From Pseudonocardiaceae bacterium (GTDB lineage Bacteria; Actinomycetota; Actinomycetes; Mycobacteriales; Pseudonocardiaceae): a DNA stretch of 20,971 nucleotides. Location of the stretch: NCBI GenBank assembly GCA_025937115.1, contig JAICSB010000010.1:1-20971 (forward strand), given 5' to 3'. Positions 2,057 through 20,971 of the stretch are shown here, piece by piece (position 1 is the first letter of the stretch; each line of letters begins with the position of its first letter). The notes below the pieces were generated by a model. That model made no database searches. It worked only from the letters and a program-made list of their open reading frames with translations, and had not been told where the DNA came from. Both the position numbers and the translations under genes were made by a program.

Positions 2057-2999
2057 GCAGGCCAGCGCCGGCGGCCGCGAGGCAGATCAGGGTGCCCAGA
2101 ATGATCCAGGGCTTGCTGACGTCCTTGCGGACCGTCTGGTACCCGATCTGCTGGTCGAGGGTGTCATAGACCTGGTGGATCTGCTGGTTGCTCTGGGCCG
2201 GGTAGAACTCGCCACCGGAGAGCTGGGCGACGCGGGCCAGCGAGTCGTCATCGACCGGCACCGGGGCCTGTTCGCCTTGGATGTCGACGGTGCCGTACGG
2301 GGTACCGAACGAGATGGTGCTGATCGGGATGTGGGCTGCCCCGGCTTGGGCGGCCACCTCGAACTCGTCGCGACCGACGTTTTGCTTGCCGTCGCTCATC
2401 AGCACGATCCGGGCCGGTGGTGGTCCCTGATCTTGGCCGGGGATGAGCTGGTTGAGCGCGCCGATGGAGGCCAGGGCAGCGGCCAGCGCTTCCCCGGTGG
2501 CGGTGGACTCCGCGAGGGTGAGGTGGCTGATGGACTGCACGGCTTGGGCTCGGTCGGTGCTCGGATTGACCAGCACGGTCGCGGTGCCGGCGAAGGATTC
2601 CACCCCGAGGTTGATGCCGGCGGGCAGTCCGCGGACAAACGACGTCGCGGCATCCTTGGCGGCGGCGATGCGGCTGGGCGAGACATCGGTGGAGTTCATC
2701 GACAGTGACACGTCGATGACCAGCATCACGACCGCGCGATTGCGCGGGACTTGGGCATTCGCGGTGGGCCCAGCCAACCCGAGGGTCAGCAGCAGCAAAG
2801 CTATGATCAACAGTACTGCGGGGATGTGCCGGGGCCAGCCCGGCCGGCGCGGGGCAACGCGTTCCAGCAACTCCAGGTTGGCGAACCGCAACAGGTAGCG
2901 GCGGGCCCGGCGGTGGGCCCACACATAGCCGACGACCACCGCGGCGACGACTCCCAGCAACCCGAACCAACCGGGTGCCGAGAATCCACCCAACGCCAT
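2031..2999 (-). CDS. VWA-domain membrane protein (Rv1481-like)
   Basis: 322 residues from the ATG at 2997-2999. Hydrophobic segments at about 9-27, 58-78 and near the C-terminus (about 293-313) frame a von Willebrand factor A domain. MIDAS metal-site residues are visible: DVSLS (D96, S98, S100), T168 and D203 in MSDGK. The pattern RFANLELLERVAP...RNRAVVMLVIDVSLSM...PISTISFGTPYG...QLSGGEFY closely resembles M. tuberculosis Rv1481, as I recall it. In the classical arrangement this protein sits beside a MoxR ATPase and a DUF58 protein; neither is here. It probably acts as a chaperone-like assembly factor with its VWA domain outside the membrane. An in-frame TTG at 3015-3017 would give an N-terminus more like Rv1481. 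Its promoter region is shared with the divergent gene at 3057. Confidence 0.88.
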   Translation of the reverse strand: MALGGFSAPGWFGLLGVVAAVVVGYVWAHRRARRYLLRFANLELLERVAPRRPGWPRHIPAVLLIIALLLLTLGLAGPTANAQVPRNRAVVMLVIDVSLSMNSTDVSPSRIAAAKDAATSFVRGLPAGINLGVESFAGTATVLVNPSTDRAQAVQSISHLTLAESTATGEALAAALASIGALNQLIPGQDQGPPPARIVLMSDGKQNVGRDEFEVAAQAGAAHIPISTISFGTPYGTVDIQGEQAPVPVDDDSLARVAQLSGGEFYPAQSNQQIHQVYDTLDQQIGYQTVRKDVSKPWIILGTLICLAAAGAGLLTSQRLPA

Positions 3000-15450: not shown

Positions 15451-16014
15451 CTACGGCCTCGGGAAATCACGGTGGAACTGTCGGTTCGCCGCCCACCACT
15501 GCTCAAATGGCTCCGCCTTGGACCACACCATGTCCGCGATGCGTCGGTAAGCCGTGACGCTTGCGGGTGAGGTGTCGGCCTCGGCGCCTAGCGGCTCACC
15601 TCTCTCGGTGTAGTACATACGAATCAACTGCACGTCATCGGCAAGATAGAAGTCTCCAGCTGCAGCATCGACTAGACGTCGCAGCTCGGGCCGATCCGCG
15701 CTGAGCTCCAGGATACGAATTTCCTCCCACGGGTTACCCGCGTAGCTCCATTCACATTCGAACCGCAGATAATCGGACAGCGGGAGATCGACGGCATGAA
15801 CCCGCCGTCGACGTAGGCCACGAGCGACCTCATCGGCCAGTCGGCTGAGCCATTGCTGGCGTCGCTCTGGAGTCGGACCGGATTCCCCCGCGAGATAGCG
15901 AGCGAAGTCCGACCCTTCGGAAGGGACCCCGTAAGCTGGCAGAGTCTCTAGTCGGAACAATGTCTTTGTGAAGTGAGCATCTATGTAGCCTCGTAGCTCA
16001 TTAGCGTCCATCAT
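15451..16014 (-). CDS. DUF6879 family protein, duplicate copy 1
   Basis: 187 residues; the alternative ATG one codon later (16009-16011) is the one matching copy 2. The family pattern is clear: HFTKTLFRLETLPAYGV, WLSRLADEVARGLRRRRVHA, PLSDYLRFECEWSYAGNP and FYLADDVQLIRMYY. DUF6879 genes are usually partners of XRE/DUF5753 regulators in actinobacteria, in the place held by DUF397 genes elsewhere. Their biochemical role is unknown. About 15 differences over some 181 residues separate it from the protein at 19047-19607. It is 55 bp downstream of the next gene of the array and has no XRE gene of its own after it, so it looks like an orphan copy. Confidence 0.85.
   Translation of the reverse strand: MMDANELRGYIDAHFTKTLFRLETLPAYGVPSEGSDFARYLAGESGPTPERRQQWLSRLADEVARGLRRRRVHAVDLPLSDYLRFECEWSYAGNPWEEIRILELSADRPELRRLVDAAAGDFYLADDVQLIRMYYTERGEPLGAEADTSPASVTAYRRIADMVWSKAEPFEQWWAANRQFHRDFPRP
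15466..16011. repeat. 546-bp direct duplication, copy 1
   Basis: Aligns without gaps to 19062-19607 (also exactly 546 bp). It spans the DUF6879 coding sequence from the second ATG to just before the stop. Sequence beyond both ends is unrelated: the C-termini differ (DFPRP versus DRWLV) and the upstream DNA differs. The copies flank the two XRE regulators, so recombination between them could delete or move the regulatory module. Confidence 0.85.
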
Positions 16015-16069
16015 TGCGGGCCATAACCACGAAGCACGACTGCACTCTTTTTGCCCAATCCCATCACGT

Positions 16070-16606
16070 TCACGCCACAGCGTGAGAGATCAGGTAATCA
16101 GCGAGACTCACCGAATACCTCAGCGCGACCTCTCGTTGCCGTTCGACCTCCGACACGGCACCCTGTTCCACGGCCTCGATGCCGAGCAGATTTCCGCTGG
16201 GGTCGAATCGCAGCAACACTCCGGACGCCCCCGGAGTGCCGGCGTCGAACAGCCACGAGTCGGGTCCAAGCTCAGCGAGCTCGGGACGGTTGTCCAGGCT
16301 CGCGAGTCGAATCTCTTCGCCGACCGCCTGTGACTCCACGTACCCGATCAGCTGGTAGCACAGGTAGTCCGACAGCGGCTCCCGAATCAAGTGCACCCGC
16401 GACCATTGCTTGCCTACCGCTGTGGTCAGCGCGATCCGGCGCAGCCACGGAGAGGTACGGACGCTGCGCTCTGGACGTGGCAGGCCCTCGCGGAAGGCGC
16501 GCAGTCGCTCGTCTTCTTCGGACACGGCGTAAGTCTGGTGCGTCTCAAGGTGGAACGCAGAGATCTGGAACGTGTCGAAGAGAGCGTCGAACTCTTCGAA
16601 AGTCAT
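16070..16606 (-). CDS. DUF6879 family protein (divergent)
   Basis: 178 residues starting MTFEEFDALFDTFQISAFHLETHQTY. The ATG at 16604-16606 overlaps the XRE stop in an ATGA, typical of coupled translation, with GGAGGG 11 nt upstream; a GTG at 16618 is an alternative. The DUF6879 plan is recognisable: F-x-LE near the N-terminus, VHLIREPLSDYLCYQLIGYVES, EEIRLA, WLFDAG and LLRFDPSGNLLG. It is far from the other three copies in sequence. It directly follows the XRE/DUF5753 gene at 16603-17481 and is probably its partner. Confidence 0.78.
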   Translation of the reverse strand: MTFEEFDALFDTFQISAFHLETHQTYAVSEEDERLRAFREGLPRPERSVRTSPWLRRIALTTAVGKQWSRVHLIREPLSDYLCYQLIGYVESQAVGEEIRLASLDNRPELAELGPDSWLFDAGTPGASGVLLRFDPSGNLLGIEAVEQGAVSEVERQREVALRYSVSLADYLISHAVA

Positions 16607-17481
16607 GTCCACCAGCACCCTCCGCTATCCAGCGCCCGGTACTTGTCGGCAACACGTCGTAGCTCGGTGCGAGCCTCGTCTCCGAAAAGGGCGTGACGTT
16701 CAAGCGACGTTAACATCGCCACGTAACGGGCGACGTCCGCCGGATCGTTGTAGTAGGCAGCCCCTCCGACAACTCCGACCACCACGGTGTGTTCGTCGTA
16801 CAGATCGAACCCGCACGGCGGGAAAACCTCGGCCTCAATGCCCCACGGGATCACACCGATGCGGACGTGAGATGGTCTGCTCACCTCGGCGATGTGCTCA
16901 ACCTGTCGCGCCATCACCTCTGGGCCACCCACACGCCAACCGAGCGCGCCCGTAGTGAGTATGAACGTGAACTGACGGCCGGGTTCATCGAGAATTTGAG
17001 CCCGCAGCAGCCGCTCAGCGACACGGGCGTGAGCGGCCGCCTCAGAAAGAGCGCCGGAGGCGAAGATGGCGCGGATGTACTCCTCGGTTTGGAGCAGGCC
17101 GGGAATCACGATCGGGTGGAACACCGAGATGTAAGTCGATCGCGCCTCATTACGGTGCACTCGTTGCTCGTGCGCTGCGGCGGAGCGACTGACAGACACC
17201 CGCGCTGGCGCCGACGCCCGGTGTTGCTCGTGGAGGTCGCGTGCCATCGCCACGAGCTGACGCCGAACCGCAGTGGGAGCACCCAACGCACGGGCGTAAT
17301 GGTCGGCGTCCTCAGGAGTAGGAATGAGCCGACCTGCCTCCATACGAGAGACCTTGGCCTGGGAGAAGCCTGCTCGGCGTCCCGCTTCGATACCTGAAGT
17401 CACTCCAGCATCGTCACGGATTTTCCGTAGCAGCTTGGCTATCTCGCCGTGCGCAATCGGTCGGGACCTCCCTCGCGGCAC
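16603..17481 (-). CDS. XRE-family regulator with DUF5753 domain (second in the array)
   Basis: About 292 residues from GTG 17479-17481, which lies 4 bases past the stop of the DUF6879 gene before it. GAGGGAGG occurs a few codons inside, followed 9 nt later by an ATT, so a later non-standard start is conceivable. The helix-turn-helix occupies about residues 15-70: IAKLLRKIRDDAGVTS, AGRRAGFSQAKVSRMEAGR, then PTPEDADHYARALGA. The DUF5753 ligand or partner domain follows: VFHPIVIPGLLQTEEYIRAIF, RQFTFILTTGALGWRVGG, HVRIGVIPWG and FDLYDEHTVVVGVVGGAAYY. These regulators are widespread in actinobacteria (WhiJ/Scr1-like), usually bound to small DUF397 or DUF6879 partners. Confidence 0.88.
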   Translation of the reverse strand: MPRGRSRPIAHGEIAKLLRKIRDDAGVTSGIEAGRRAGFSQAKVSRMEAGRLIPTPEDADHYARALGAPTAVRRQLVAMARDLHEQHRASAPARVSVSRSAAAHEQRVHRNEARSTYISVFHPIVIPGLLQTEEYIRAIFASGALSEAAAHARVAERLLRAQILDEPGRQFTFILTTGALGWRVGGPEVMARQVEHIAEVSRPSHVRIGVIPWGIEAEVFPPCGFDLYDEHTVVVGVVGGAAYYNDPADVARYVAMLTSLERHALFGDEARTELRRVADKYRALDSGGCWWT

Positions 17482-17485
17482 GCGA

Positions 17486-18166
17486 TCATGCCACCCGGGT
17501 ATCGCGGTGGTAGCCCGGGTGGGCGTCCCACCAGATCGCGAAGTCGGTCGCCTGGCTCCACAGCAACTCGGCAAGTGCCAGCAACGGCGCGGCGCTGTAG
17601 GGATCGCTCAGGACCTCCGCACCGACAAACTTACATGTCTCGTCGTAATGGGAACGGATGACATGCTCCCCGTCGAGCACAAAAAAGTCACCGACCTGAG
17701 CGAGCGCCGAAGTCAATTCTGCGATGCGGACTTGCTCGCCAGCCGCGGTGTTCGGCACATAGCCCCACTCGCACTCGTAGCGGACGTAGTCCGGCAGCGG
17801 GTGCGTGACGGCGTGAATACGGCGCCAGGCCCGGCCTGCGGCGACATCCGCCCGAATCCGGTCCAGCCATGGCTGCTTGGCTTCAGCGCTAGGTGCGGGC
17901 TCATCTCGTAGGTACCGGCCGAAGTCGTCATCGTCGGAGACTGCGTTGTACAACGGCAACGTCTCCAGCCGGAAGAGGTCCCGGGTGTGGTGCTTCGCCA
18001 CGAACTCGCCGAGTTGGTCAAGAGTGAGGACCTCGCGAAGCTCCGGAAGCAACTCGGCCTCCACGATCACCACGCCTTCGTGGTCAGGCAGGGGCCCAGC
18101 TTGTCGAGGCGCTTGTCGTCTTGCATCCGCGGCGATGGGTTGGTCGATCTCCTCTGGACCGTTCAT
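17486..18166 (-). CDS. DUF6879 family protein (with N-terminal extension)
   Basis: 226 residues from the ATG at 18164-18166, with AGGGAG 7-9 nt upstream. The first 45 residues are an extension not seen in the other copies. The family part then runs: HTRDLFRLETLPLYNAV, RYLRDEPAPSAEAKQPWLDRI, RRIHAVTHPLPDYVRYECEW, FFVLDGEHVIRSHYDE and WWDAHPGYHRD. It sits between the two XRE genes: 11 bp after the stop of one and 4 bp before the GTG of the other, so it is certainly co-transcribed with both. Confidence 0.85.
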   Translation of the reverse strand: MNGPEEIDQPIAADARRQAPRQAGPLPDHEGVVIVEAELLPELREVLTLDQLGEFVAKHHTRDLFRLETLPLYNAVSDDDDFGRYLRDEPAPSAEAKQPWLDRIRADVAAGRAWRRIHAVTHPLPDYVRYECEWGYVPNTAAGEQVRIAELTSALAQVGDFFVLDGEHVIRSHYDETCKFVGAEVLSDPYSAAPLLALAELLWSQATDFAIWWDAHPGYHRDTRVA

Positions 18167-18177
18167 GCCTGGTCTCC

Positions 18178-19044
18178 CTAAGACATCAAAGATCGTGGTA
18201 GACGATCCAATGTCTTGTACTCATCAGCGATACGGCGCAGCTCAGCGCGGGCATCTTCGCCGAACACCGCCATGGATTCCAGTTCGTTGAAAAGGTCTTC
18301 GTAAGTGGCTATGTCACCTGGGTCGTCGACCAAGGCGGTCGCTGTCTTAGTGCCGATTTGCACGGCGCGTCCGTCGAAGATGTGGAAGCCGTGCGGCGCT
18401 AAGACCGTCGTTGGTGTACGTCGACGGATCAGCCCAATTCGCACATTCGGTAACTGACTCACGTCGGCTACATAGTTGATCTGCTCAGCCATCAGCGCGG
18501 GGTCGCGGACGCACCAGTCCAGTGCGCCTTCTGTTTGGATCAGCACCCACTGTCGACGCGTGTCCGCCAGATCCTTTTGTCTGGCGAGCCGAGCAGCCAC
18601 GCCGTCTGCGACCTGCTGGGCCGTACGGCCCCGGGAGCCAAACACTACCTGCGCATAGGCGGATGTCTGTAATATCCCCAGGATGATGTTCGGCTGGTAG
18701 GCGCGGATCAGGACCGACGACAGTTCGATCTTACCTAGGCGTTCCTGGAAATGGTTGATTCCACGCTGCATGATGATCCGCGAGTCCAGGTGCTCCGGCC
18801 TGATCGCGGTTGCCAACTCGACTAACCGAGCTATCATGTCCGGATCGGCGCCATACATCCGAGCAAGCGCGTCGACAATGTCCGGCTCTGGCACCGCCTT
18901 GCCCTTTTCGATCCGAGACAGCCCGGGCTGGCTAATGCCCACAGCGGTGGCCGCTGGGATCTGCTTCATCCCGGCGGCAATCCGCAAGGTCCTCAGCGAC
19001 CGTGACAATTCGTCGCGACCGCCTTCCCGCTGCGAGGTCGTCAC
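18178..19044 (-). CDS. XRE-family regulator with DUF5753 domain (first in the array)
   Basis: 288 residues from GTG 19042-19044, two bases after the stop of the DUF6879 gene; TTG at 19057-19059 would give five more residues. The helix-turn-helix is LSRSLRTLRIAAGMKQIPAA, then AVGISQPGLSRIEKGKAVPE (about 14-53). The DUF5753 part follows: IRAYQPNIILGILQTSAYAQVVF, RQWVLIQTEGALDWCV, PNVRIGLIRRRTPTT and FHIFDGRAVQIGTKTATALVDDP. It ends ...ELRRIADEYKTLDRLPRSLMS, similar to the end of the second XRE protein (ELRRVADKYRALDSGG). The upstream partner is the DUF6879 copy 2; the same DUF6879-XRE order recurs just downstream. Confidence 0.88.
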   Translation of the reverse strand: MTTSQREGGRDELSRSLRTLRIAAGMKQIPAATAVGISQPGLSRIEKGKAVPEPDIVDALARMYGADPDMIARLVELATAIRPEHLDSRIIMQRGINHFQERLGKIELSSVLIRAYQPNIILGILQTSAYAQVVFGSRGRTAQQVADGVAARLARQKDLADTRRQWVLIQTEGALDWCVRDPALMAEQINYVADVSQLPNVRIGLIRRRTPTTVLAPHGFHIFDGRAVQIGTKTATALVDDPGDIATYEDLFNELESMAVFGEDARAELRRIADEYKTLDRLPRSLMS

Positions 19045-19046
19045 TG

Positions 19047-19607
19047 TCAAACTAGCCAACGATCACGGTGAAACTGTTGGTTCGATGCCCACCACTGCTC
19101 AAATGGCTCCGCCTGAGACCACACCATGTCTGCGATGCGTCGGTAAGCCGCGACGCTCGCGGGCGATGTGTCGGCCTCGGCGGCTAACGGCTCACCGACT
19201 TCGGTGTAGTACATACGAATCAAGTGAACGTCGTCGGCAAGGTAGAAGTCCCCAGCTGCGTCATCGACTAGCCGCCGCAGCTCAGGCCGATCCGCGCTGA
19301 ATTCCAGGATACGGATTTCTTCCCACGGGTTTCCCGCGTAGCTCCATTCGCACTCGAAGCGCAGATAGTCGGACAGCGGGAGATCGACGGCATGGACCCG
19401 CCGTCGGCGTAGGCCTCGAGCCACCTCATCGGCCAGTCGACTGAGCCATTGCTGGCGTCGCTCTGGAGTTGGGCCGCGTTCCCCTGCGAGATAGCGAGCG
19501 AAATCCGACCCTTCAGCAGGGACCCCATAAGCAGGCAATGTCTCTAGCCGGAACAATGTTTTTGTGAAGTGACCATCTAGGTAGGCTCGTAGTTCCTTGG
19601 CGTCCAT
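19047..19607 (-). CDS. DUF6879 family protein, duplicate copy 2
   Basis: 186 residues from the ATG at 19605-19607, 8 bp after the stop of the 63-residue peptide gene. The sequence is about 92% identical to copy 1, including the same TLFRLETLPAYGV, LRRRRVHAVDLPLSDYLRFE and FYLADDVHLIRMYY stretches. The last five residues (DRWLV) differ because the duplication ends there. Unlike copy 1, this one keeps an XRE regulator immediately after it, so it is the likely parent or at least the functional partner. Confidence 0.87.
   Translation of the reverse strand: MDAKELRAYLDGHFTKTLFRLETLPAYGVPAEGSDFARYLAGERGPTPERRQQWLSRLADEVARGLRRRRVHAVDLPLSDYLRFECEWSYAGNPWEEIRILEFSADRPELRRLVDDAAGDFYLADDVHLIRMYYTEVGEPLAAEADTSPASVAAYRRIADMVWSQAEPFEQWWASNQQFHRDRWLV
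19062..19607. repeat. 546-bp direct duplication, copy 2
   Basis: Gapless partner of 15466-16011, in the same orientation, 3596 bp away. The equal length without any indel, and changes that mostly keep or mildly alter the residue, suggest both copies stayed under coding selection after duplication. Confidence 0.85.
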
Positions 19608-19615
19608 CAGCGCGA

Positions 19616-19807
19616 TCACATCTCGGGAAGTTCGACGATGACCTCCCCTGGTCCGACGTTGGGGATCACGCCGAGGACGTCCAGATCTGACGTTGGTTTG
19701 GCAACCAGGTAGCGGGTGCCAGGCCGCTCCTTGATCCGGTACTCGCCCGGACACCAGTCGTCGTCTCCGCAAGCCGCGCTCCACAGGGTCGTGACCGTGA
19801 GTGCCAT
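19616..19807 (-). CDS. Small protein at the head of the DUF6879/XRE array (63 aa)
   Basis: The ATG at 19805-19807 follows GAAGGGAC. The product begins MALTVTTLWSAACGDDDWCP, continues GEYRIKERPGTRYLVAKPTS and ends GEVIVELPEM. Two Cys flank an acidic DDDW, and the C-terminal half has a beta-strand-like alternation. I recall similar short proteins near XRE/DUF5753 genes, but no function is known. It is the first gene after the likely promoter at 19842-19870 and is followed 8 bp later by a DUF6879 gene, so it belongs to the same transcript. A longer open frame upstream to 20065 is not supported by any start signal. Confidence 0.7.
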   Translation of the reverse strand: MALTVTTLWSAACGDDDWCPGEYRIKERPGTRYLVAKPTSDLDVLGVIPNVGPGEVIVELPEM

Positions 19808-19841
19808 GGGTGTCCCTTCGCCGTCGCTGGTTGTCGCGCCA

Positions 19842-19870
19842 AGTGTCACCGCAGCGTGGTAGGTAGTCAA
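19842..19870 (-). promoter_or_regulatory. Possible promoter of the DUF6879/XRE array
   Basis: On the minus strand TTGACT (19865-19870), a 17-nt spacer, then GACACT (19842-19847), about 35 bp before the 63-residue gene. The -35 box is close to consensus; the -10 is weak but has the final T. Nothing better is visible in the divergent spacer. Confidence 0.4.
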
Positions 19871-19886
19871 TGGCTCTTGTAATATT

Positions 19887-19904
19887 CTATGGTGTGTTGC
19901 ATAG
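19887..19904. promoter_or_regulatory. Inverted repeat in the divergent spacer (candidate XRE operator)
   Basis: CTATG, an 8-nt spacer, CATAG, set in an AT-rich island (GTAATATTCTATG...) that stands out from the high-GC surroundings. It lies just upstream of the -35 box of the array promoter and about 180 bp before the plus-strand operon. A second small inverted repeat, GACAT-5 nt-ATGTC, is at 20027-20041. Either could be bound by the XRE regulators; this is inference from position. Confidence 0.35.
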
Positions 19905-20043
19905 TCACCGTGGTAGCCAGCAGTCGCCGACTCGGTTCCATCATCAGGACCGCGATGGACGACCAGCAACGGAGTGCCGGGTGAGGCCTGACGCTCAACA
20001 ACCAATCGGCGGCAGCCGGACCGCAGGACATAAAGCATGTCGC

Positions 20044-20079
20044 ATGAGCACCGTGACCCCATCACGAGCGAGGAGGTGA
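20044..20079 (+). other. Twelve-codon upstream ORF containing the ribosome-binding site of the next gene
   Basis: ATG AGC ACC ... AGG AGG TGA encodes MSTVTPSRARR and stops inside the ribosome-binding site (AGGAGGTG, 20071-20078) of the gene that starts at 20084-20086. A ribosome finishing here would sit on that site. It may be a leader peptide for coupling or chance; it has no clear ribosome-binding site of its own. Confidence 0.25.
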
Positions 20080-20085
20080 GCAGAT

Positions 20086-20385
20086 GTGCCGGTAGGCAGA
20101 CATCGTTCCCGGCGGCGAGGACGTGCGGTGGCCGCCGCCGGGGTCCCGGCCGAGAGACCCCGTGTCATCGCGATGACCGATGCTCGCACCTATCGCGCCC
20201 ACCTCGTGACCGACGCGGCCGCCGCCGCTGGTCGCGCGGACATGGGGTGGTATCGCGCGATGTGCGGCGTAGTGGTGCTCGCCGCGAGCATGACCACCCC
20301 GGAAACCAGTTTTTGCGGCGCCTGCGCTCGTAGGTACGGCGGTCAAGATATGGCTCACAGCGTGAGCGGGAATGGTGCTCGATGA
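20086..20385 (+). CDS. Unknown protein with CG...CxxC motif (99 aa)
   Basis: GTG 20086 has AGGAGGTG 7 nt upstream. The overlapping ATG at 20084 stops after three codons; the ATG at 20173 is a later alternative giving 70 residues. The first 28 residues are Arg-rich and could be untranslated if the later start is used. From MTDARTYRAHLVTDAAAAAG on, the protein has WYRAMCGVVVLAASMTTPET, then SFCGACARRY: C, then CxxC, with nearby His, as in small zinc-binding actinobacterial proteins. Not assigned to a family. Its stop overlaps the next start (ATGA), so the two are translationally coupled. It opens the plus-strand operon that leads to the charged peptide and methyltransferase. Confidence 0.65.
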   Translation: MPVGRHRSRRRGRAVAAAGVPAERPRVIAMTDARTYRAHLVTDAAAAAGRADMGWYRAMCGVVVLAASMTTPETSFCGACARRYGGQDMAHSVSGNGAR

Positions 20386-20699
20386 CGGCTGATGGTCCAG
20401 ATGTGGCGGCTGCAAAGCTACTCCTCGACATTCTCAAGCTGCGTGGCTTTCAGTTCCGTCGAGTCGCCCCGGGCGAGGACGGGCCAGTGGTGGGGAATCG
20501 AGTGACCGGTGACTGGGTTGACCTTATCCATATCGAGGGATTCAGCCGCGATTGCTTCGCGTGGCGTAAGCGAACATCGTCGCTGATTGTTCCCGGCGAT
20601 GGGTTAGTAGAGCATCGGGCAAACGGCGATGTACTGACCGTGCTCAACGAAGTGCTGAGCTGGGAGACGGATCGTGATTCATATGCTGTTCAGTCGTGA
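20382..20699 (+). CDS. Unknown protein (105 aa) in the peptide-methyltransferase operon
   Basis: The ATG overlaps the preceding stop by 4 nt. The protein begins MTADGPDVAAAKLLLDILKL and has a middle part with TGDWVDLIHIEGFSRDCFAW and a C-terminal LTVLNEVLSWETD helix-like segment. No signal peptide or membrane segment, and no motif I recognise. The alternation of strands and an N-terminal helix suggest a small globular cytoplasmic protein. The charged peptide gene starts 15 bp after its stop in the same frame, so the transcript surely continues. A role as a partner, immunity or regulatory protein is only a guess. Confidence 0.65.
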   Translation: MTADGPDVAAAKLLLDILKLRGFQFRRVAPGEDGPVVGNRVTGDWVDLIHIEGFSRDCFAWRKRTSSLIVPGDGLVEHRANGDVLTVLNEVLSWETDRDSYAVQS

Positions 20700-20714
20700 T
20701 CCAATGAATATCCG

Positions 20715-20909
20715 GTGAGCGTCTGCGGCGGCGGGTCAAAGAAGCGAGCAAGAAAGCGAGGACCCGGTGTGGCCCGTAACAGCGGTGGCGAAGGGAAGCA
20801 TGAGAACGAAGAGGAGAAGCGGCGCGACAGCAACGGCCAATGGGATAAGGATAGCGGGATTCCACCGGAGTCCGACTCCGGCAAGCACGGCAGCGACGAC
20901 GACAGGTGA
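20715..20909 (+). CDS. Highly charged peptide (64 aa), candidate imiditide-type RiPP precursor
   Basis: GTG 20715 is the only plausible start; a stop lies six codons upstream in frame, and the ribosome-binding site is poor. The peptide has a very basic N-terminal part (SKKRARKRGPG, 8-18), a mixed KHENEEEKRRD block (28-38), and a Trp/Asp/Ser/Gly/Pro part: DSNGQWDKDSGIPPES at 38-53, then DSGKH and a DDDR tail. More than 40% of residues are charged, and hydrophobic residues are almost absent, unlike a folded enzyme. The methyltransferase start overlaps its stop (GTGA). Imiditides are described as a linear charged precursor plus a PIMT-like methyltransferase that converts one Asp to an aspartimide. 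Asp-Ser sites here are D38, D46 and D54. Confidence 0.6.
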   Translation: MSVCGGGSKKRARKRGPGVARNSGGEGKHENEEEKRRDSNGQWDKDSGIPPESDSGKHGSDDDR

Positions 20910-20971
20910 GCGAGCACGCGTCGTTGCGGCGACGGCTCATGGACGAGTTGGCCGCCAGTGGTGACCTCACC
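20906..20971 (+). CDS. PIMT-like O-methyltransferase, N-terminus only (cut by window edge)
   Basis: Reads GTG AGC GAG CAC..., with 22 codons to the edge: SEHASLRRRLMDELAASGDL. LRRRLMDELAASGDL matches the first helix of protein-L-isoaspartate O-methyltransferase homologues (LRxxLVDxLxxxGxL), which use S-adenosylmethionine. It overlaps the peptide stop by 4 nt. An internal ATG at 20939 is an alternative start. Nothing of the SAM-binding motifs or of the C-terminal motif that separates RiPP-modifying from repair enzymes is in view, so the assignment rests on the first helix and on the neighbouring peptide. Confidence 0.5.
   Translation, partial: MSEHASLRRRLMDELAASGDLT

Follow-up and report, generated by a model that had tools for sequence, protein, structure and literature searches.

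The window analyzed here is the whole stretch of 20,971 nucleotides from a soil actinobacterium of the family Pseudonocardiaceae. At its right end, a gene for a short charged peptide overlaps the beginning of one for an aspartate-methylating enzyme. The relevant features are:

20382–20699, plus strand: gene for a 105-aa protein with no Pfam or NCBIfam match and with 482 relatives.
20715–20768, plus strand: in-frame upstream stretch of 18 codons including KKRARKR, not present in the four database relatives of the peptide.
20758–20762, plus strand: GAGGA, resembling a ribosome-binding site, 6 nt ahead of the GTG at 20769.
20769–20909, plus strand: probable imiditide-type precursor gene, GTG start, 46 codons plus stop (MARNSGGEGKHENEEEKRRDSNGQWDKDSGIPPESDSGKHGSDDDR), delimited by the relatives' start and the family alignments.
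20799–20801, plus strand: His11 of the N-terminal GKH motif, a position at which all 86 aligned precursors have His.
20832–20837, plus strand: Asn22-Gly23 (AAC GGC), the tentatively proposed modification site, in the place where most relatives have Asp-Gly.
20874–20888, plus strand: Asp36-Ser-Gly-Lys-His, the second GKH motif (Gly in 86/86 and His in 84/86 precursors), Asp36 being the other candidate for modification.
20906–20971, plus strand: first 22 codons, from a GTG, of a gene for a PIMT-type (PAMT) methyltransferase, cut by the end of the window (VSEHASLRRRLMDELAASGDLT).

A GTG-initiated frame of 64 codons can be read from 20715 to 20909 on the plus strand, and the sequence-only reading had taken all of it as the precursor; the precursor is, however, most likely only 46 residues long. 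A protein search with the 64-aa frame recovered four clusters of 46–47 aa and 76–84% identity, whose members begin at the equivalent of the in-frame GTG at 20769, these database starts being predictions too. Inspection of the sequence revealed no GAGGA-like site ahead of the GTG at 20715. Given the start of the four relatives and the GAGGA before 20769, we take the precursor as 46 aa, which leaves KKRARKR outside it: this basic run, earlier placed near the start of the peptide, is indeed encoded in the 64-codon frame, but the stretch 20715–20768 is probably untranslated. The three Asp residues earlier singled out as candidate sites (D38, D46 and D54 of the 64-aa frame) do exist, each followed by Ser, but the conserved column lies elsewhere, at residue 22 of the 46-aa peptide; the DDDR tail was confirmed on reading the peptide. 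Neither the peptide nor the 22-aa enzyme start matched any family in NCBIfam or Pfam, and a distant-DNA search of plasmids with positions 18100–20971 returned no match. The 22-aa enzyme start gave no match across 390 genomes of the family either, an empty result that carries no weight for so short a query.

The overlap of four nucleotides (GTGA) between the stop of the peptide gene and the start of the next frame at 20906 was likewise borne out by the sequence. Against a profile covering residues 1–34 of 23 relatives' enzymes, the enzyme start ranked first among 570 six-frame fragments of the window (E = 3.2e-4; the second scored 0.51), in agreement with the proposal that a PIMT-like methyltransferase lies next to the peptide. 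As in the window, the start codon in the enzyme frame sits at a 4-nt overlap in 23/32 relatives; the overlap is 1 nt in three of the 32, and the remaining six differ, several through apparent frame breaks. The window's enzyme is known from 22 codons only, and its SAM motif and C-terminal domain are predicted from those of its relatives.

To the left, the Pfam scan of window ORFs (20 of 43, at least 150 aa) brought out no RiPP maturase, consistent with the earlier remark that no lanthipeptide, lasso or graspetide gene is visible there; an ATP-grasp ligase was found neither among these 20 ORFs nor between peptide and enzyme. Further upstream, positions 15451–19784 (minus strand) carry four DUF6879 genes, among which two HTH_31/DUF5753 regulators are interspersed. 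Among the 120 of the 482 relatives of the 105-aa protein that were listed, those with an organism name are all Pseudonocardiaceae bins except for one Mycobacterium sp. The nearest genome (G001), with which the window shares 50% of sampled words, has a homologue of this gene, with no peptide–PAMT pair or ATP-grasp/PAMT cluster directly after it in the stretch examined; another homologue (L082:2998-3363, minus strand) lies ahead of an ATP-grasp/PAMT cluster. The notion of the 105-aa gene as a constant neighbor was rejected: tblastn found it at only two (L049 and L082) of 91 PAMT/precursor loci, along with two loci in G001. In L082, a small ORF by the ATP-grasp gene (2558-2842, minus strand) is a possible graspetide precursor, whose CGKHSK recalls the GKH motif, maybe by chance.

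The association of the peptide with a methyltransferase recurs in related genomes. In 11 genomes of the genus, the 64-aa frame alone produced nine matches (E<=0.1), seven of them 33–303 nt upstream of a same-strand PIMT-type match (TIGR04364, FxLD-system methyltransferase), an adjacency with a chance of 4.5e-16 by a simple binomial. We examined 80 regions, which cover the majority of the listed PIMT matches, and built from them a PAMT profile that 97 ORFs match; 96 reach at least 60 bits, and directly upstream of 32/96 lies a precursor of this kind, in some cases truncated. The precursor profile that found these upstream peptides was seeded with the window peptide and peptides read off the loci, and its scores are circular for those rows. 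Profile A2 gave one weak match (in G270) across 390 genomes of the family and no confirmed match in viral contigs, and a broader profile, A3, was needed; it is an alignment of 32 precursors that omits five truncated ones (L070, L071, L073, L079 and L116). With at most 18 candidates scored per genome, A3 marks at least 37 places in at least 10/390 genomes from four genera; at 33 of the 37 a PAMT match, in one case weak, follows within 1.5 kb, the exceptions being L127, L130, L132 and L134. This linkage is partly circular because A3 was itself built from precursor–PAMT loci; among the places outside A3, 8/12 have a PAMT, and five of these eight are in two other genera (three in G267, one each in G388 and G389). 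The sole match of a scan of genome contigs, a Sphingomonas locus (L002), was rejected as chance, since it has no PIMT-type enzyme in the 16 kb examined and no precursor-profile match.

Of the enzymes of these relatives, all 21 examined contain the PCMT domain (PF01135), and WxxxGxP occurs in 20/21 full-length enzymes with a precursor (the exception being L047), as against 55/88 PAMT-type ORFs of all regions examined. Their best NCBIfam match is TIGR04188, with E-values down to 1.8e-103 though below the family cut-off in all five tested; as this model also matches, again below cut-off, the enzyme of a graspetide cluster, it does not tell imiditide from graspetide enzymes. An AlphaFold2 model of the enzyme on the plus strand of L044 (pLDDT 87.8) has as its first structural match the PIMT of T. 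maritima (1dl5), followed by other PIMTs. Thus, the PCMT domain, the 7/9 adjacency and the A3 linkage together give the proposal of an imiditide-type two-gene cluster with a PIMT homologue good support from the relatives.

The precursor alignment comprises 86 rows, 81 of them unique. In the layout that they share, KH stands on the N-terminal side and G[K/R]H on the C-terminal side, a central Asp/Asn precedes Gly/Ala, and the tail is charged. The central column holds Asp in 69 rows, Asn in 16 and Thr in one (P0166), which resembles a deletion; the next residue is Gly in 79 rows and Ala in seven. The window has Asn-Gly here. Glu never occurs in the central column, whereas the Asp columns of the tail are mixed with Glu. 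The precursors are under purifying selection, with dN/dS values of 0.08–0.28 (pooled 0.18) over nine pairs, some sharing members. The 46 residues of the window precursor compare with a family median of 47 counted from the KH motif, and PMC10787088 gives about 45 aa for an imiditide precursor. Imiditide precursors are also characterized by richness in Gly, Pro and Asp and by a highly conserved Asp close to Gly/Pro; the corresponding column here is Asp/Asn in 85/86 rows. Gly and Asp each make up 15.2% of the window precursor and Pro 4.3%, against 11.9, 14.5 and 14.0%, respectively, in the family. Its net charge is -5 (family median -4, range -14 to +4), and it has no cysteine. The supposition that charge–charge contacts govern recognition found no support: the charges of precursor and enzyme C-domain show no significant correlation over 21 pairs (rho -0.29, P 0.21).

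Taken as a whole, the pair in the window is very probably an imiditide (type I pamtide) cluster. It shares with the imiditides (NmaA–NmaM of Nonomuraea maritima and SpaA–SpaM of Streptomyces sparsogenes) the two-gene layout; a charged linear precursor of about 45 aa; a PIMT homologue with a C-terminal domain and WxxxGxP, here seen in the relatives' enzymes; and the lack of any other maturase beside the pair among the scanned window ORFs. It departs from them in the KH...[D/N]G...G[K/R]H layout of its family (NmaA and SpaA being compared by description, not by alignment), in the Asn at the conserved column and in the net acidity of its precursor: imiditides are described in the review PMC13001092 as strongly positively charged, a trait that is not defining. 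According to the same review, the modified Asp of NmaA is followed by His, whereas the family's column is followed by Gly or Ala. The graspimiditides (group 13 graspetides), whose methyltransferase model TIGR04188 is the one that the relatives' enzymes match best in NCBIfam, though below its cut-off, differ in having a precursor of another kind and an ATP-grasp gene, which is absent from the precursor–PAMT loci. With the cysimiditides (type II pamtides) the two-gene PAMT layout is shared, but the window precursor lacks their CxxCxGxG zinc motifs. With canonical PIMT (Pcm; T. maritima 1dl5), the pair has in common the catalytic-domain fold predicted by the relative's model, and differs in the coupling of the enzyme gene to a dedicated peptide gene. 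The cassette is thus of a known kind; what is new is that its conserved column holds Asn and that two relatives carry so many cassettes. The putative KH...[D/N]G...G[K/R]H subfamily is without a name in NCBIfam and Pfam.

How often Asp and Asn have replaced each other can be gauged on a tree of 33 enzymes, drawn without three long-branched rows (L121, L067 and L050) and L073, whose site could not be read, and with L079 labeled as Asp. The label needs at least three changes, as against 8.6 in shuffles, which can be read as one for the Asn clade, one for L064 (back to Asp) and one for L124, from a different genus. In the clade in question 9/11 rows are Asn-type (support 91/89 in this tree and 99/95 in another). 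This strong clustering implies that exchange is occasional rather than free. Further contrasts lie off the tree: the window (Asn) against P0002–P0005 (Asp); P0151, P0160 and P0164 (Asn) against P0152 and L078 (Asp-Ala); and L133 (Asn, assigned by eye) against L121 (Asp). They suggest that there may have been more than three exchanges, and such repeated exchange fits, without proving, a column that accepts residues capable of forming a succinimide. That Asn is followed by Gly in all 16 Asn rows carries no weight as a signature, since Asp is mostly followed by Gly as well (62/69).

From the relatives and the known chemistry, we envisage the following mechanism. Precursor and enzyme would be translated in a coupled way, and the enzyme, in which a C-terminal domain is added to a PIMT fold, would bind the linear peptide and methylate one carboxylate. 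The methyl ester would then close to an aspartimide, the feature that defines the class, which could hydrolyze to isoAsp/Asp. The central Asp/Asn-Gly is the most likely site. As the column in the window is Asn22-Gly23, we infer a deamidation route in which Asn would pass through the same succinimide and the PAMT would then act on the isoAsp/Asp formed. Spontaneous formation of an aspartimide at Asn has been proposed for Asn83 of the RiPP SsfA in PMC10787088; the open literature that was searched yielded no report of Asn at an imiditide modification site. We assign the modification in the window to Asn22 only tentatively, at something short of an even chance.

An alternative that we hold to be about as credible keeps the same kind of cluster and moves the modification to Asp36 (SDSGKH) or Asp20 (DSNG), with no chemical part for Asn22. 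It accords with the direct action on Asp described for PAMTs in PMC13001092. An Asp within the five residues before the second GKH is, moreover, commoner in Asn-type than in Asp-type precursors (13/18 versus 26/68, P 0.016, uncorrected for kinship and with the states of nine added rows set by eye), as fits a shifted or second site; one Asn-type row whose second GKH was misplaced by the script (P0160) does have such an Asp. The four closest relatives found retain both Asp20 and Asp36. Against it, neither column is conserved across the family, and both copies of L044 (one on each strand), L130 and L133 are Asn-type with no Asp in those five residues. The same four relatives have Asp-Gly at the central column, which lends some weight to a further reading, that the window copy is decaying, either because Asn22 abolishes modification or because the enzyme gene is disrupted past the end of the window; several cassettes of relatives (L070, L071, L073, L079 and L116 among them) indeed look broken. 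We consider decay improbable, however: pairs of Asn-type precursors are under purifying selection (dN/dS 0.19 for L066/L048, 0.15 for L045/L077 and 0.27 for L058/L045), and Asn prevails through most of an entire enzyme clade.

The readings that dispense with an imiditide are far less probable still. If the methyltransferase belonged to a graspetide or lanthipeptide cluster lying to the right, the peptide would be a bystander. Graspetide-type clusters are common in the genus: in 22/91 loci, other PAMTs sit with a recurrent group of ATP-grasp maturase ORFs, and the two members tested against TIGR04187 (ATP-grasp ribosomal peptide maturase) exceed its cut-off; a homologue of the 105-aa gene precedes one such cluster in L082. 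Yet none of the 22 is a precursor–PAMT locus, and the window peptide both overlaps its enzyme as in the relatives and belongs to their precursor family, so that we give this reading very little credence. Least probable of all is a PIMT gene with an ordinary housekeeping role in repair, next to a small ORF unconnected with it: this reading draws on the fact that only the start of the enzyme is visible, and is opposed by the conserved, coupled peptide, by the purifying selection and by the C-domain motif of RiPP type that the relatives have.

The cassettes have multiplied in some genomes. Truncated ones included, PAMT cassettes in the genus number 34: 15 in G007, ten in G008, three each in G006 and G004, and one each in G001, G003 and G011. 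PIMT-type matches of all kinds (E<=1e-5) number 57 in G007 (3.7 Mb) and 44 in G008 (5.2 Mb), as against 2–17 elsewhere in the genus (nine genomes) and 5–35 in 17 chosen genomes of other genera; these counts include fragments, and both G007 and G008 are fragmented assemblies with 5–7% estimated contamination. A family-wide PIMT count, for which four candidates per genome were scored, was set aside in favor of these fully scored counts. The high numbers in G007 and G008 next to 2–17 elsewhere indicate that multiplication is a trait of some members and not of the genus. Seven cassettes (L070, L071, L073, L079, L116, L130 and L134) look broken or without an enzyme, suggesting rapid gain and loss, or else assembly errors.

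Returning to the imiditide reading with Asn22 as a candidate site, these observations suggest that some members of the family may reach the aspartimide via deamidation of Asn. One could go further and picture an imiditide branch with a natural Asn-Gly or Asp-Gly site, in which Asn would form the succinimide without methylation and the PAMT would re-form the aspartimide from isoAsp/Asp, Asp and Asn being exchangeable, having been exchanged several times, and the cassettes having been multiplied in some members of the genus; in this full form we deem the proposal rather unlikely. The function of aspartimidylated peptides, according to PMC13001092, remains to be discovered, and one may only guess at a signal or an inhibitor, acting inside the cell or exported. 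The family asks whether a RiPP enzyme can use an Asn that deamidates spontaneously. With its dozens of natural variants, a near-invariant Asp/Asn column and genomes that each carry many cassettes among its hosts, it amounts to a natural mutagenesis set that bears on the choice of site, the recognition between enzyme and peptide, and function.
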